From the IMG/VR virus record IMGVR_UViG_3300047548_000488, positions 1 to 32,766 of that record: 32,766 nt of DNA, one strand, 5' to 3'. The translations under genes were made by a program, and so were the position numbers. This document shows positions 19,957 to 30,423 of this stretch, one piece after another (positions within the stretch are counted from its first letter, which is position 1; each line of letters opens with the position of its first letter). The notes under the pieces were generated by a model. The model saw only the letters and a program-made list of their open reading frames with translations, did no database searches and was not told the DNA's origin. This stretch comes from a virus.

Positions 19957-19985
19957 GTTATAGCATTTTGGGCAAACAATGTCAA
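19957..19985 (-). promoter_or_regulatory. sigma70-type early promoter
   Basis: TTGACA (19985-19980), a 17-bp spacer with GCCCAAAA, and TATAAC (19962-19957). A TTTTTTAG run precedes the -35. Confidence 0.8.
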
Positions 19986-21035: not shown

Positions 21036-21064
21036 ATTATACATCCATTAAGCTTGATTGTCAA
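21036..21064 (-). promoter_or_regulatory. consensus sigma70 promoter
   Basis: TTGACA (21064-21059), a 17-bp spacer, and TATAAT (21041-21036): both boxes are perfect. The next ATG is at 21026, so the mRNA would be leaderless or nearly so. Confidence 0.88.
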
Positions 21065-22573: not shown

Positions 22574-22602
22574 ACTATAGCAAAAAATGTGAGGGATGTC
22601 AA
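22574..22602 (-). promoter_or_regulatory. sigma70-type promoter whose -35 lies in a terminator loop
   Basis: TTGACA (22602-22597), 17 bp, TATAGT (22579-22574). The -35 hexamer is the loop sequence of the terminator hairpin at 22587-22612. Confidence 0.82.
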
Positions 22603-22612
22603 CCCCTCACAT
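22587..22612 (-). terminator. intrinsic terminator of the metallophosphoesterase gene
   Basis: ATGTGAGGG and CCCTCACAT pair perfectly (9 bp) around the 8-base loop GTTGACAT (minus strand) and are followed by TTTTTT. The stop codon TGA (22609-22607) lies inside the stem. Confidence 0.85.
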
Positions 22613-23218
22613 AATAGGAGCATTCCCATTTCTGAACCCGATCTGACCACCTTGGTCCTTGATCTTTTGAACTACCTCATCAAAAGAGATAGGACGATAA
22701 TCAGTATGCTCAACACAGACCGAGAAGTAATCAGGGTCAATAACGTCAACCTCGTCATATCCCATATCACCAGCACCTGGATTAGAGTGAACAGTGATGG
22801 TCTTCATAACACGATTGCCGTGAGTGTGCCCGTGAATGTTGGCACCGAAACGAGCAATGCTATCCTTGTGAACAGGAATGTGACTCAGGATGCAACCATC
22901 CATAACGTGATAGGCACGAATGTCTCGGAAGTAATTCACATAATCTTTCAGCTTGAAGATATCGTGATTACCTTTGATCAGTACCTTGTCACCGTTCAGC
23001 CTATCCAGGATAGTCAGATACCTGCGATTAATGACAACATCACCCAGGTGGTAGACCTTATCCTTAGGACCAACAGTCTCATTCCACCTTTTGATCATTT
23101 CCTCATTCATCTCCTCAACATCATCCCACGGACGCACAGGACTACCGTCACTGTTGGTAAACTTACAGATACCAGCGTGACCAAAATGCGTGTCACTGGT
23201 CAGAAAAATGCTAGGCAT
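22607..23218 (-). CDS. metallophosphoesterase, 203 aa
   Basis: The motifs are SDTHFGH (residues 8-14), GDVV (about 59), KGNHD (about 81), LSHIP (about 107) and IHGHTHG (about 124). The compact form with SDTHFGHxxI, GDV and GHTHG is the YfcE/UDP-sugar-hydrolase-distant type often annotated in phages as phosphoesterase. The start is the ATG at 23218 with AAAGGAATTC upstream; a longer frame to 23269 runs through the promoter and is rejected. Preceded by its own promoter and ended by a terminator, it is monocistronic and early. Confidence 0.88.
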   Translation of the reverse strand: MPSIFLTSDTHFGHAGICKFTNSDGSPVRPWDDVEEMNEEMIKRWNETVGPKDKVYHLGDVVINRRYLTILDRLNGDKVLIKGNHDIFKLKDYVNYFRDIRAYHVMDGCILSHIPVHKDSIARFGANIHGHTHGNRVMKTITVHSNPGAGDMGYDEVDVIDPDYFSVCVEHTDYRPISFDEVVQKIKDQGGQIGFRNGNAPIM

Positions 23219-23240
23219 AATGAATTCCTTTCTATTATTC

Positions 23241-23269
23241 GTTATACAATATTTTGGGTAGATTGTCAA
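23241..23269 (-). promoter_or_regulatory. sigma70-type early promoter for the phosphoesterase
   Basis: TTGACA (23269-23264), a 17-bp spacer with ACCCAAAA, and TATAAC (23246-23241). Its -35 is only 2 bp from the divergent late-type element at 23272-23279. Confidence 0.82.
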
Positions 23270-23271
23270 GC

Positions 23272-23279
23272 TATAAATA
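23272..23279 (+). promoter_or_regulatory. late promoter TATAAATA, 5 bp before an ATG
   Basis: This is an exact match to the T4 late consensus. With T4 spacing, +1 falls on the A of the esterase ATG at 23285. No ribosome site is present. Confidence 0.65.
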
Positions 23280-23284
23280 TCGCT

Positions 23285-24208
23285 ATGGAAAGCGAATTAT
23301 TACCTGATGTAAGAAAATTTCTTGATGATTTGAACAAGAATGGGCCGTATAATTATGATGTAGAACACATACGTAGGGCTGCTGCATTTCTTCCGGCGAT
23401 GGATTGTCCTCCTAAGCCTCTTACTGTGATTAAAGATTTGGAAGCAGAATGCTCTATAGGTAAGATAAAATTTAGATTTTTTGATCGTAGAGAAACTAGG
23501 GCGCCTTGTCCAATTCTTATATATTTTCACGGCGGCGCATTTGTAGCCGGGAGTATCGTTTCTCATACTACGATATGCACTGAGCTTGCTGATTACCTAG
23601 ACATACCCGTTGTATTACCTGAATTTCGTTTAGCACCAGAATATACTTTTCCAGCAGCAATTGATGATTGTGAAGCATTTAGTAGGTTCATAGCAAATAG
23701 TCCTACCATCATAGACAGAGAAGTAACCGGGCTTGTAGTGGCAGGAGATAGTTCAGGCGGTACTACGGCTATTGTTATATCTCAAATATTAAGAGATAAT
23801 CCTGCTAGGGTGCCTGTTATTTTACAAGCTCCGTTATACCCATTACCAAATCCTGAAGGTGAATACTATAGCGTAGTTAAATTTGCTGAAGGATATTATG
23901 GAACTAAAGAAACTCACGAAATTTATAAAAAAGTTTACAACCCTATAATAGACGATCCGCGTTTCAGTCCAATATTAGGAAAACATCACGATATGCCAAA
24001 AACAGTAATAGTAACCTGTGAATATGATATGCACCGAGACTCAGGCAGAGATTATGCAACAAAACTGATTCAGCACGGGAACAAAGTTACTTTCCTAGAA
24101 TTCAAAGGGATGATTCACGCCTTTGCAGGATTTAGAAAATTGATTCCTTCTGCCGAACTTGCATTTGAGCAAGTTTTGTCACACATACGTACTAATCTGG
24201 AGGAATGA
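23285..24208 (+). CDS. alpha/beta hydrolase of the hormone-sensitive-lipase (HSL) family
   Basis: HSL-type esterases hydrolyse short-chain carboxyl esters. The marks are YFHGGAFVAGS (oxyanion-hole HGG, residues about 79-82), EFRLAPEYTFPAAIDD, GDSSGG with the nucleophile Ser (about 160), Asp in TCEYDMHRDSG and the catalytic His in GMIHAFAG. The length of 307 aa is normal and the triad complete. The start is placed at 23285: a longer upstream frame runs through two promoters and the antisense phosphoesterase. The stop overlaps the ligase start (ATGA), so the three genes to 26323 form one operon with a likely leaderless mRNA. Confidence 0.88.
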   Translation: MESELLPDVRKFLDDLNKNGPYNYDVEHIRRAAAFLPAMDCPPKPLTVIKDLEAECSIGKIKFRFFDRRETRAPCPILIYFHGGAFVAGSIVSHTTICTELADYLDIPVVLPEFRLAPEYTFPAAIDDCEAFSRFIANSPTIIDREVTGLVVAGDSSGGTTAIVISQILRDNPARVPVILQAPLYPLPNPEGEYYSVVKFAEGYYGTKETHEIYKKVYNPIIDDPRFSPILGKHHDMPKTVIVTCEYDMHRDSGRDYATKLIQHGNKVTFLEFKGMIHAFAGFRKLIPSAELAFEQVLSHIRTNLEE

Positions 24209-25725
24209 TGATATTTCCTGATATTGTCGAGAATTTCCCAAACTCAGTAGCTGTAATTGATGCTTCATCGAATAAGAGCATAACATATCGACAGTTAAGT
24301 GACTATTCGACTAAACTAGCGCACTATCTGAATAAGCATTTGAGTAAGGGAGATAGATTTGCTACTTTACAAAAGAACAACATACACGCATTTGTTACTT
24401 TAATGACTAGCATTAGGTCAAGCTTTAGAGTAGTGCCAATCAACTGGCACTTAAAACAGGAAGAAGCTAAACATATTATTAAAAATAGTCAATCATTGGG
24501 CCTAATTGTATCAAGTGATTTTAAAGAAATAGCATATGAGTTGTCCACTGAATTTGATTTCAAATTCAAGATGTTTGATGATTTTCCTATAAAAAACTTT
24601 TCGTCGCTCTATGACTCGATACTATTTGAACCAACAACTCCTAGTAATACTGATGAATTCGCATTCCCAATGTTTTACTCATCAGGAACTGCGGGCGCGC
24701 CAAAAGGAATATTGAATCCTCTAACACCTATTCCTATATATGACAACTCCATTTATGATACTGTTAAGGAAATGTACGGATACGATGCCAATGCAGTGAT
24801 ATATTCTCCTTGTCCTCTATATCATAGTACTCCGATCACTGCGCTTAATCTAGTATTGAATTCGGGAGGGTGTTGTATCGTATCAGATAGCTTTGATCCC
24901 GAAAAGACATTAGAGTACATAGAAAAATACAAAATAACACATATGGTAATGGTTCCTACTCATTTTGTAAGGTTATTAAAGCTGGATGAAAAGATACGAA
25001 ACAGATATGACGTTTCTAGTTTAAAGTTTGTGATACACGGGGGCGCTAATTGTCCCATAACAATTAAAGAGCAGATGGTAGAATGGTGGGGTAACATTTT
25101 TTATGAATTCTACGGATCAACTGAAAGTCTATATTTCGTAACTATGACTCCGGAAGATTATACTGACCACAAGGGGTCGGTTGGAAAAGTAATTAGTCAG
25201 TATGGTGATATATCAATAGTAAATGACGACGGCATAGAATTGCCGCGGGGTGAAGTTGGACATATCGTAGTATCCAACTCATACAGAACAATTTCATACC
25301 ATAATAGCAATGATTCCTTGTTTGTCACAAAGAATGGCAAATTAGGAATAGGTGACATAGGATATATGGACGATGAAGATTATTTGTATGTGACCGGCAG
25401 AACGTCTGATATTATCAATACTGGCGGGGTTAAAATATATCCTAAAGAGGCAGAAGATATTCTCATTACCCATCACAATGTGCAAGATGTAGCTGTAATA
25501 GGTATACCTGATATAGAGTTAGGAGAAAAAGCAATTGCCGTAGTTCAATTAGTTATTGGAACTGAACCTTCTACCTCGCTAAAGAATGAGTTGATAACTT
25601 TTTGTAAGGAAAGATTATCTTCGTTTAAATGCCCCAAAGAAGTATATTTTGCTAACGACTTGCCTAGGTTACCGTCAGGAAAACTACTAAAAAGAGAATT
25701 ATTAAACAGACACTACGATGACTAA
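24205..25725 (+). CDS. AMP-forming acyl-CoA synthetase/ligase (ANL superfamily)
   Basis: All core motifs are in order: the P-loop FYSSGTAGAPKG (about residue 155), YGSTES (about 303), GIGDIGYMDDEDYLYVTGR (about 388-406) and the C-terminal PSGKLLKREL with the catalytic Lys. The enzyme adenylates a carboxylic acid and usually transfers it to CoA or a carrier thiol; the acid cannot be named. The length of 506 aa is complete, so this is an intact gene. It overlaps the esterase upstream by 4 bp and the GNAT-like gene downstream by 8 bp. A full-length enzyme of this class is unusual in a phage. Confidence 0.9.
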   Translation: MMIFPDIVENFPNSVAVIDASSNKSITYRQLSDYSTKLAHYLNKHLSKGDRFATLQKNNIHAFVTLMTSIRSSFRVVPINWHLKQEEAKHIIKNSQSLGLIVSSDFKEIAYELSTEFDFKFKMFDDFPIKNFSSLYDSILFEPTTPSNTDEFAFPMFYSSGTAGAPKGILNPLTPIPIYDNSIYDTVKEMYGYDANAVIYSPCPLYHSTPITALNLVLNSGGCCIVSDSFDPEKTLEYIEKYKITHMVMVPTHFVRLLKLDEKIRNRYDVSSLKFVIHGGANCPITIKEQMVEWWGNIFYEFYGSTESLYFVTMTPEDYTDHKGSVGKVISQYGDISIVNDDGIELPRGEVGHIVVSNSYRTISYHNSNDSLFVTKNGKLGIGDIGYMDDEDYLYVTGRTSDIINTGGVKIYPKEAEDILITHHNVQDVAVIGIPDIELGEKAIAVVQLVIGTEPSTSLKNELITFCKERLSSFKCPKEVYFANDLPRLPSGKLLKRELLNRHYDD

Positions 25726-28214: not shown

Positions 28215-28853
28215 ATGATTAATGGAATAGTATATCTTATTATAAATCTTCACAACTTGAAGAATGAAGCATTACCATATCTGTATATTGGATCTACCAA
28301 ACGCACCCATCAATTTACTAAATATTACAGCAGTTCAGAAACTTTGCAGTCAGATGTAAAAAGCCTGGGTCAGGATTCTTTCAAAAAGATAATTCTCTTA
28401 GAGAGAGAATTTACATCAGTTGACGAGCTTCAAACAGTTGAAGCTGAATACCAAAAAGAATACAACGCTATTTCTAGCCCGGTGTTCTATAATAAATCTT
28501 TCGCTATAGGACCGTTCTACGATCTTAATGGATCATACACTAAAGATTCAATATGGATTACTGACGGTAAAATAAACAAGCGAGTGCCAGCAGACGAAGT
28601 TGATCAATATCCCGGATTCGTTAGAGGAAGAAGTAATGGAAAATACATGACCAATCGAATCTATATTAACAACGGGATTGAAACAAAAGCTATTTCTGCT
28701 AATGAGCGACACTTATACAAAGAATGGAGTGATGGGAAACTCAAAGGAAATCAAGCCGGAAAGATATGGATTAATAACCGAGTTTCAAGAAAACTTATTA
28801 AGCAAGAAGATCGTTCATCATTTCCCGATTGGGTCGATGGTTGGAAACTTTAA
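28215..28853 (+). CDS. GIY-YIG-like homing endonuclease with repeated C-terminal DNA-binding motifs, 212 aa
   Basis: The N-terminus has GIVYLIINLHN ... YLYIGSTKRTHQF (GIY-YIG core) and ELQTVEAEYQKEYNA, with the expected Glu. The C-terminal half holds three copies of a unit of the form I-W/Y-I-x-(D/N)-G-x2-x-(K/R)-x4-(E)-x5-(P/E)-x-(F/W)-x2-G (IWITDGKINKRV, RIYINNGIETKAI, KIWINNRVSRKL), known from T4-like phage endonucleases as DNA-contact repeats. It interrupts the tRNA/RNA gene region, between tRNA-fMet and the structured RNA stretch, on the opposite strand to both. Confidence 0.8.
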   Translation: MINGIVYLIINLHNLKNEALPYLYIGSTKRTHQFTKYYSSSETLQSDVKSLGQDSFKKIILLEREFTSVDELQTVEAEYQKEYNAISSPVFYNKSFAIGPFYDLNGSYTKDSIWITDGKINKRVPADEVDQYPGFVRGRSNGKYMTNRIYINNGIETKAISANERHLYKEWSDGKLKGNQAGKIWINNRVSRKLIKQEDRSSFPDWVDGWKL

Positions 28854-29040
28854 CTTTGATCAGGATGAGATTACTCCTGAATCCGAGAGTCTTTGGTCAT
28901 TACCGAATCCCTTGCGAGGACCGTTCTACCGTTATCCACTAACGCCTTTTACGGTCAGTTAGTAACTCTCAATGGTGCCTTTTTTAGAGTCTGGCGTTTG
29001 ACTCGTCGTAATATGCTATTCGACCTTCTATCTTTCGTTA

Positions 29041-29057
29041 GCCTTGCGGGCTACTCA
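29041..29057. repeat. 17-bp direct repeat, copy 1 (copy 2 at 29333-29349)
   Basis: The same 17 bases beginning GCCTTGCGGG occur at both sites, with a 12-base partial copy at 29101. Each forms a GCC-loop-GGC hairpin. A second repeat, CTTGTATTGCTAC, occurs at 29384 and 29626. Confidence 0.75.
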
Positions 29058-29188
29058 CAGTCGCTAAACCGTTACGCTTTCTTTCCGATCAACTACTTCT
29101 GCCTTGCGGGCTTCCGTAGACCACATTCCCTTGCGAGTGTGGTATTAACCACCTTTCACATATTACCGGAGCAGTCTTTCGCTTTTGT

Positions 29189-29259
29189 GTTACAAATTAG
29201 GAATTGAACCTAAATCGACTGTTTAAGAGACAGTTGCATTACCATTATGCAATTTGCGA
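29189..29259 (-). tRNA. tRNA-Lys (CTT)-like gene, acceptor stem imperfect
   Basis: D arm GCAT-AATGGTA-ATGC, anticodon arm ACTGT-CTCTTAA-ACAGT, a 4-base variable loop and T arm TTAGG-TTCAATT-CCTAA are all canonical, with U8 present. In the acceptor stem position 2-71 is C-A and position 3-70 is G-U, and no CCA is encoded, unlike every other tRNA here. The gene is embedded in the structured RNA region, so it may be degenerating or part of a larger RNA. Confidence 0.6.
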
Positions 29260-29718
29260 ACCTACCAAGATGTGCTGCTCCAGTTGCTCCATATCTTGTT
29301 AGATACAGAATACAACACACCTCATGTCTTTTGCCTTGCGGGCTACTCAACCATACTTCACGATTCCGGTCATCCCTTCGTCGCTTGTATTGCTACTTTG
29401 CCTTCCCTTGCAGGGTCAGACTTAGTAACTACCCGTTAACTTTCAGTATTCGTTAGTTTGGTTGATCGTAGTTCAGCCACCACAGCCTCTTTCGTCCTCA
29501 GCGTTGCCCTGGACTTTATCCTTTCAGACTACAACCCTAACTTACTACTTGCCGCCATCCTACTGACGGGAGTTGCTTTCGCATATTTCAGCGAGTCAAC
29601 CCTAGTTCGGGCTTGCATAGATGGACTTGTATTGCTACAAGCGCAAGTTTATAGGAAACCTTGCTTTGGTCAAGATTACTCTCGACTATCCTAGTGAGGC
29701 TATGCCCCCAATTCTTAT

Positions 29719-29841
29719 ATACTCATTAGAAGAATGCACGGGTGAGAGTCGCACTCCCCTAGTTCTCACACTAGGTTTACCACAAGGAGTTACACTGCGA
29801 TTGGGCACACCTGCGACACCATGCACTCATCTAATGAGTAT
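29719..29841 (-). ncRNA. 123-nt stem-closed structured RNA
   Basis: ATACTCATTAGA and TCTAATGAGTAT pair perfectly over 12 bp. On the minus strand the helix continues for about 10 more pairs (GTGCATGG with CCGTGCAT) using two G-U pairs, which point to a minus-strand RNA. Inside, GTCGCA pairs with TGCGAC (29748-29753 with 29812-29817), ACTCC with GGAGT, and CCTAGT with ACTAGG around a 6-base loop. It lies about 45 bases after the start expected from the promoter at 29895. It is not a tRNA: no D arm or T loop fits. Its apical loop shares TGTGAGAA (minus) with the element at 28009. Confidence 0.6.
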
Positions 29842-29894
29842 TTTTACTAACAATTTCAAAGAGCCTCAAGTCGATTTCTCGTCTTGATAAGTTC

Positions 29895-29923
29895 ATTATA
29901 CTTATTCTTGATACCAATGTCAA
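29895..29923 (-). promoter_or_regulatory. consensus sigma70 promoter for the structured RNA region
   Basis: TTGACA (29923-29918), 17 bp, TATAAT (29900-29895): both boxes perfect. The next credible minus-strand protein gene downstream is beyond 28.0 kb, so the product is most likely RNA. Confidence 0.85.
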
Positions 29924-29940
29924 GAACTTTTTTCACTTTT

Positions 29941-30123
29941 TCAAATTAATTCTATCGTAACTTTAACCGGAATAACTTGAACATCCTTTAAACCATACAT
30001 AGCAGATGACCTATTATGTCTAGCACTTCGTTCAGTGTTAAACACTCTAGCCTTATTAAGGTCAGTGGTCAAACTGCGATTTGATTTAGCAACATAACCG
30101 TGTTCTGAACGGATTACAAACAT
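29941..30123 (-). CDS. small phage protein, 60 aa
   Basis: The protein starts MFVIRSEHGYVAKSNRSLTTDLNKARVFNTERSARHN. This 'YVI.....YV......FT..L..ARVF.T...A' pattern is found in many short T4-like phage proteins that have a small alpha/beta fold and no known role. Its ATG overlaps the stop of the 78-aa gene. Together they form the operon behind the promoter at 30395. Confidence 0.65.
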   Translation of the reverse strand: MFVIRSEHGYVAKSNRSLTTDLNKARVFNTERSARHNRSSAMYGLKDVQVIPVKVTIELI

Positions 30124-30394: not shown

Positions 30395-30423
30395 CTTATA
30401 ACAAGATTTGGGAACAATGTCAA
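30395..30423 (-). promoter_or_regulatory. sigma70-type early promoter
   Basis: TTGACA (30423-30418), a 17-bp spacer with TCCCAAAT, TATAAG (30400-30395), then AGTATATATCAAGAGC. It shares AAAAAAGTTCTTGACATTG with the promoter at 29895. Confidence 0.85.

Follow-up and report, generated by a model that had tools for sequence, protein, structure and literature searches.

Comparison to described GOLLD RNAs

The env-38 GOLLD RNA was solved by cryo-EM as a cage of 14 RNA copies with the linkers inside, and tRNAs are sometimes located in the linker (PMC12286853). The presence of tRNAs in GOLLD linkers is already reported and not new here; the env-38 paper mentions them only as phage tRNAs (PMC12286853). 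For a pseudo-tRNA inside the GOLLD of Mycobacterium aubagnense, no expression was detected (PMC6582537), and in one Lactobacillus brevis prophage GOLLD is dispensable for phage production, as reported in PMC7567579.

The window analyzed here (the whole stretch of 32,766 nt) is a 32.8-kb virus record. The large RNA on its minus strand is GOLLD, a known family, and genes for tRNA-Met, tRNA-Gly, tRNA-Asp and tRNA-Arg are located nearby. The following features were annotated:

28862 to 29323, minus strand: conserved 3′ domain of GOLLD (RF02032 model positions 1 to 416, 210.6 bits)
29189 to 29259, minus strand: tRNA-like linker module with the anticodon loop CUCUUAA, anticodon CUU (tRNA model 55.8 bits; threading and controls)
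29324 to 29709, minus strand: 5′ domain of GOLLD including a long-range helix, 29615-29620 with 29700-29705 (alignment and covariation of 18 homologues)
29719 to 29842, minus strand: optional 5′ cassette, an inverted-repeat stem with a putative degenerate class-II tRNA-like cap (inverted repeat and fold)
29854 to 29864, minus strand: boxA-like antitermination site GCTCTTTGAAA (sole match in the window)
29866 to 29887, minus strand: boxB-like hairpin UCAAG-acga-GAAA-ucga-CUUGA with a GNRA-type loop (fold)
29895 to 29923, minus strand: sigma70-type promoter TTGACA-17-TATAAT (12 of 12 consensus positions; start presumably near 29888)

The search with cmscan covered all 416 positions of RF02032 (E = 2.1e-58, cut-off 150 bits). 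This model represents the GOLLD 3′ domain only; the extension in 5′ direction to about 29709 was derived from homologues and gives a conserved core of about 848 nt (28862-29709). The RNA therefore consists of a conserved 3′ domain and a more variable 5′ domain, with about 800 nt or more in total. Covariance models of ROOL and HEARO found no match at E values up to 1 in the region 28700-30000, and both identities were rejected. A GOLLD- or ROOL-like RNA enclosing a tRNA had been proposed from the sequence-only reading; it turned out to be GOLLD itself. The extent proposed there (28860-29888) agrees with the core up to about 29709, whereas 29710-29888 comprise the leader and an optional inserted cassette, which is missing from some relatives.

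The two-domain core of 848 nt is comparable to the 833 nt of env-38 GOLLD, and the match to the complete 3′ domain model, the linker within the conserved 3′ region, the linker tRNA reported for some members and the adjoining phage tRNA genes are shared with the GOLLD RNAs described in PMC12286853. Different from env-38 GOLLD, the window has a boxB-boxA-like leader, a linker module with a truncated acceptor and an extra 5′ cassette, whose cap is a second putative tRNA-like fold.

Nine other viral contigs, including one of 361 kb, contain the whole GOLLD unit with an identity of 75-89%. Two working classes were distinguished: class A has an AU-rich linker without a tRNA fold, and class B is the class of the window. 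With up to 26 tRNA genes per phage, the related phages are tRNA-rich and apparently virulent; a strict class-B pattern gave no match among the genomes of 84,980 bacterial and archaeal species, and no prophage copy was found. The 3′ motif pattern is not reliable by itself, since the Rfam score confirmed only about 75 of 120 contigs as true GOLLDs, so that all counts given below rest only on Rfam-confirmed or linker-matched loci; the homologues are kin and the counts are not independent, so that the certainty is overstated by them.

Covariation and strand of the RNA

For the verification of the RNA structure, 18 homologous GOLLD cores were aligned and base pairs were predicted with RNAalifold. 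Two-sided compensatory changes were observed for 121 of the 193 predicted pairs, distributed over both the 5′ and the 3′ domain, which identifies the minus strand as the RNA strand. The strand had been left in doubt by the sequence-only reading, as two hairpins pair better on the plus strand, and is settled by this covariation. The long-range helix that had been noticed before is present and nearly invariant, with one compensatory change from G-C to A-U in a related locus (L183). Repeated GCAA loops described in the same reading correspond to invariant CGCAAGG hairpins, and its two direct repeats are copies of hairpins of this type. An open reading frame of at least 60 amino acids is missing on the minus strand from 28862 to 29940, as had been stated. 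Due to the missing frame and the strong RNA covariation, a protein-coding reading was rejected.

The tRNA-like linker module

The tRNA-Lys-like gene that had been recognized inside the RNA is present at 29189-29259 and tRNA-shaped, but its acceptor end is not intact. The D, anticodon and T stems of the cloverleaf are complete, whereas acceptor pair 2 is a C-A mismatch, pair 3 is a G-U pair and no CCA follows. A module is located at the same place of the linker in relatives, with many different anticodons. In total 103 linkers were surveyed, of which 77 are unique and 69 could be threaded.

The D, anticodon and T stems of the 69 unique modules are paired to 1.00, 0.99 and 0.99, respectively, and these stems together with acceptor pairs 4-7 are kept at 93-100%. 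In contrast, all seven acceptor pairs were found in only 3 of 69 modules compared to 620 of 823 free tRNAs of the same loci, and a CCA follows 1 of 69 modules compared to 795 of 823 free tRNAs; modules and free tRNAs were threaded with one program, and the contrast is conservative because some genes of the free set were mis-threaded. The missing CCA alone is not decisive, since it could be added by the host. The conserved stems and the loss of the outer acceptor pairs and of the CCA indicate that the fold is under selection and the charging end is not. A selected linker module that is apparently non-decoding was not found in the literature searchable for this analysis.

The linker tRNA might be a real phage tRNA, which would be excised from a GOLLD precursor and used in translation, so that GOLLD would partly be a tRNA carrier. 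The 55.8 bits of the window's module, the U33 present in 61 of 62 seven-base anticodon loops, the dominating NUU anticodons and annotated tRNA genes at this site in Caulobacter phages (see below) agree with this, whereas the broken acceptor and the missing CCA in nearly all modules, both kept by the free tRNAs of the same loci, argue against it. Furthermore, some modules have a Leu or Ser anticodon without a long variable arm, others an eight-base anticodon loop, and position 33 is G or A in the Caulobacter loops. Given its defective acceptor end and the missing CCA, the window's module probably does not act in decoding, and for the modules in general this explanation is very improbable. The loss of the acceptor agrees with the pseudo-tRNA in the M. 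aubagnense GOLLD, for which no expression was detected and which likewise is a tRNA-like gene within GOLLD; in that bacterium it is one pseudogene within a tRNA cluster, whereas the module described here is conserved across many phages (PMC6582537). It also qualifies the suggestion that the GOLLD linker carries phage tRNAs (PMC12286853).

Some loci contain free tRNAs next to an embedded module: L154 has a free tRNA-Lys(UUU) and a tRNA-Lys(CUU) called by ARAGORN alongside the embedded CUU copy, and L104 has a free tRNA-Asn(GUU) alongside an embedded GUU module. In the linkers of L127, L131, L167, L081, L130 and L156, the module is shrunken or the T arm is lost. Class-A GOLLDs and some of class B have no tRNA-like module, which therefore cannot be the basic function of GOLLD.

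In two kinds of GOLLD the linker contains a circularly permuted tRNA (L083:7602-7720 and L042:4754-4860, the latter with the near-duplicate L191, which is the same element). The order is T arm, acceptor 3′ strand, CCA, short spacer, acceptor 5′ strand, D arm and anticodon arm. The acceptor strands pair at 7 of 7 positions in each, both kinds fold accordingly and three acceptor pairs are changed on both sides between them. A scan for more permuted tRNAs found only these two kinds, and a limited literature search did not reveal any phage for which a circularly permuted tRNA has been described. Their perfect acceptor stems and CCA would suit a processing signal, at which RNase P and 3′ nucleases would cut GOLLD into its two domains, as would the position of the module, which in the linker separates the first stem of the Rfam 3′ domain from the remainder. 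The CCA helps RNase P cleavage. The common form of the module lacks the CCA and the outer acceptor pairs, features that aid the cleavage, and many GOLLDs have no tRNA fold at all, which makes a processing signal quite improbable.

Variation of the anticodon loop

In 11 isolated Caulobacter phages, which are the best-sampled ones, variation of the module is confined to its anticodon loop (5 of the 7 loop positions compared to 0 of the 73 others), a pattern that suggests selection on the tip. In an alternative alignment the differences are one insertion, one deletion and one substitution, all within the loop, so that the change could comprise as few as three events. The module is annotated as tRNA-Lys in the phages Karma, Ccr5, Magneto, Swift and RBC57 and as tRNA-Gly in phiCbK, Ccr2, Ccr10, Ccr29, S2L and BL57; inside the module, both forms differ solely in the anticodon loop. 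These GenBank annotations appear to be the non-decoding linker module of GOLLD, and the Caulobacter phage records viewed have no annotation for GOLLD. Some phage tRNA annotations are thus suggested to be parts of GOLLD rather than decoding tRNAs, and laboratory phages of Caulobacter (phiCbK, Karma, Ccr2) carry both loop types. A change compensating that of the loop was not found in about 1 kb of the 11 phages, except for one distant base. A kissing partner of the anticodon loop inside GOLLD was rejected, as none co-varies in this region.

Compared to the free tRNAs, the embedded modules are enriched in NUU anticodons with UU at positions 35-36 (38 of 62 vs. 80 of 776) and in U36 (51 of 62 vs. 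275 of 776), and A37 is present in 55 of 62.

Promoter and boxB-boxA-like leader

The perfect sigma70 promoter of the sequence-only reading is real (29923-29895, minus strand), and the window has only one other perfect match. It is kept upstream of GOLLD in L033, L133, L144 and L179. With up to two mismatches, 20 TTGACA-17-TATAAT sites were counted in the window compared to 7.5 expected, and this over-representation suggests that the phage uses host promoters of the sigma70 type. Further promoter-like sites on the minus strand are located, for example, at 30395-30423, 19957-19985 and 21036-21064.

In bacterial rRNA leaders, a hairpin is followed by GYTCTTTRAAA (boxB-boxA). The stretch 29854-29887 has the same layout, with a GNRA-type hairpin followed by a boxA of this type directly after the promoter; unlike in an rRNA operon, it precedes a noncoding phage RNA, where Nus factors would be expected to bind by analogy. 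The boxB-like hairpin of the window contains an A-A mismatch and reaches only 4 bp in the hairpin scan, and the lone boxA match in the window is not significant alone (0.37 expected). Among the relatives, a boxA precedes 35 of the 73 unique GOLLDs of class B and 23 of the 26 unique ones of class A, with a chance expectation of 0.023 per 470 nt; about half of the class-B GOLLDs have no recognizable boxA within the stretch searched. A hairpin of at least 5 bp is located next to boxA in 47 of 59 GOLLD contexts compared to 30 of the 92 matches located elsewhere in these loci. By regular expression, no boxA was detected in several Caulobacter and related isolates, and one is present in the isolate DSS3_MAL1.

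A putative rRNA-type boxB-boxA leader before many GOLLDs was not found in the literature searchable for this analysis, and neither a leader nor antitermination is mentioned by Kretsch 2025 (PMC12286853). Host Nus factors probably bind the leader and cause antitermination; as on rRNA operons, the polymerase would then escape termination by Rho over about 1 kb of untranslated RNA.

The boxB-boxA leader also occurs ahead of tRNA genes or arrays (L154:3234, L146:259, L327:6036, L321:53). In DSS3_MAL1 it is followed by an array of tRNA genes, a GOLLD-like RNA and a tmRNA.

Optional 5′ cassette

The stem of the cassette is a 23-nt inverted repeat (29719-29741 with 29819-29841) with 87% complementarity, and the fold of 29715-29890 has a z-score of −5.0. 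The class-II tRNA reading of the cap in the window was made by eye. The cassette is absent from L179, L133, L144 and L146, and its contents differ in L154, L162, L125 and L161; the stem carries a tRNA-Thr-like fold in L154 and L162 and a hairpin in L125.

Proposed function of the module

From the solved GOLLD structure, we infer that the transcript of about 1 kb would assemble into a 14-copy cage with the linkers and their tRNA-like modules inside. There, the modules might be baits for host factors that recognize anticodon arms, most plausibly tRNA-cutting defense nucleases, and thereby spare the tRNAs of phage and host. No known nuclease was tied to the hosts of these phages. The anticodon loops of phage tRNAs have been proposed to evolve under tRNA-targeting defenses (PMC10264068), and a bait inside an RNA cage would be our own extension of this idea. 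In both cases the change is located in the anticodon loop of a phage-borne tRNA structure; the tRNAs of PMC10264068 are proposed to be working and resistant to cleavage, whereas the GOLLD modules have no usable acceptor end. The role as a decoy is put forward tentatively.

Alternatively, the tRNA fold could act only as a compact plug or as a spacer of the cage interior, repeatedly captured from the phage tRNA array with its up to 26 donor genes, and its loop would be unconstrained. Some GOLLDs have a short AU-rich or shrunken linker instead, and the site of the 5′ cassette likewise swaps its contents freely. A free loop, however, would not keep U33, U36 and A37 at the frequencies given above, and the loop change next to 73 unchanged positions in the Caulobacter phages looks like selection on the tip. 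A plug is conceivable, although doubtful. Tethering of ribosomes or translation factors to the cage via tRNA shape and anticodon is a further explanation: bacterial ribosomes bound GOLLD in pull-downs (Kretsch 2025, PMC12286853), and the anticodon and T arms are kept in the modules. The truncated acceptor and several loops without U33 argue against a use in the decoding site, and such a tether is unlikely.

The decoy reading can be extended to the cages of tRNA-rich phages in general, which would be multi-copy anticodon decoys: antitermination would yield the RNA in bulk, each cage would present up to 14 non-chargeable modules and the loops would be exchanged to follow the tRNA-targeting defenses of the host. 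This generalization is rather speculative. The explanation as a whole, comprising a GOLLD gene, a non-decoding module, an antitermination leader, a cage and an anticodon decoy, has about an even chance of being correct. The boxA leader of many GOLLDs and the linker module, which is under selection, non-chargeable and hypervariable in its anticodon loop, offer two testable handles on the function of GOLLD.

Neighboring genes

A GIY-YIG endonuclease-like ORF (28215-28853) is located on the opposite strand to GOLLD, between GOLLD and the tRNA-Met gene, and matches the SegE family just below the Pfam cut-off. In L125 the tRNA-Met gene is only about 100 nt away from GOLLD, so that the stretch 28215-28853 seems to be inserted in the window. 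For the GIY-YIG protein and an 894-aa protein of the window, no match was found in isolated phages. Adjoining genes for an alpha/beta hydrolase and an AMP-binding ligase are located at 22589-25725, and this pair possibly belongs to an auxiliary metabolism.
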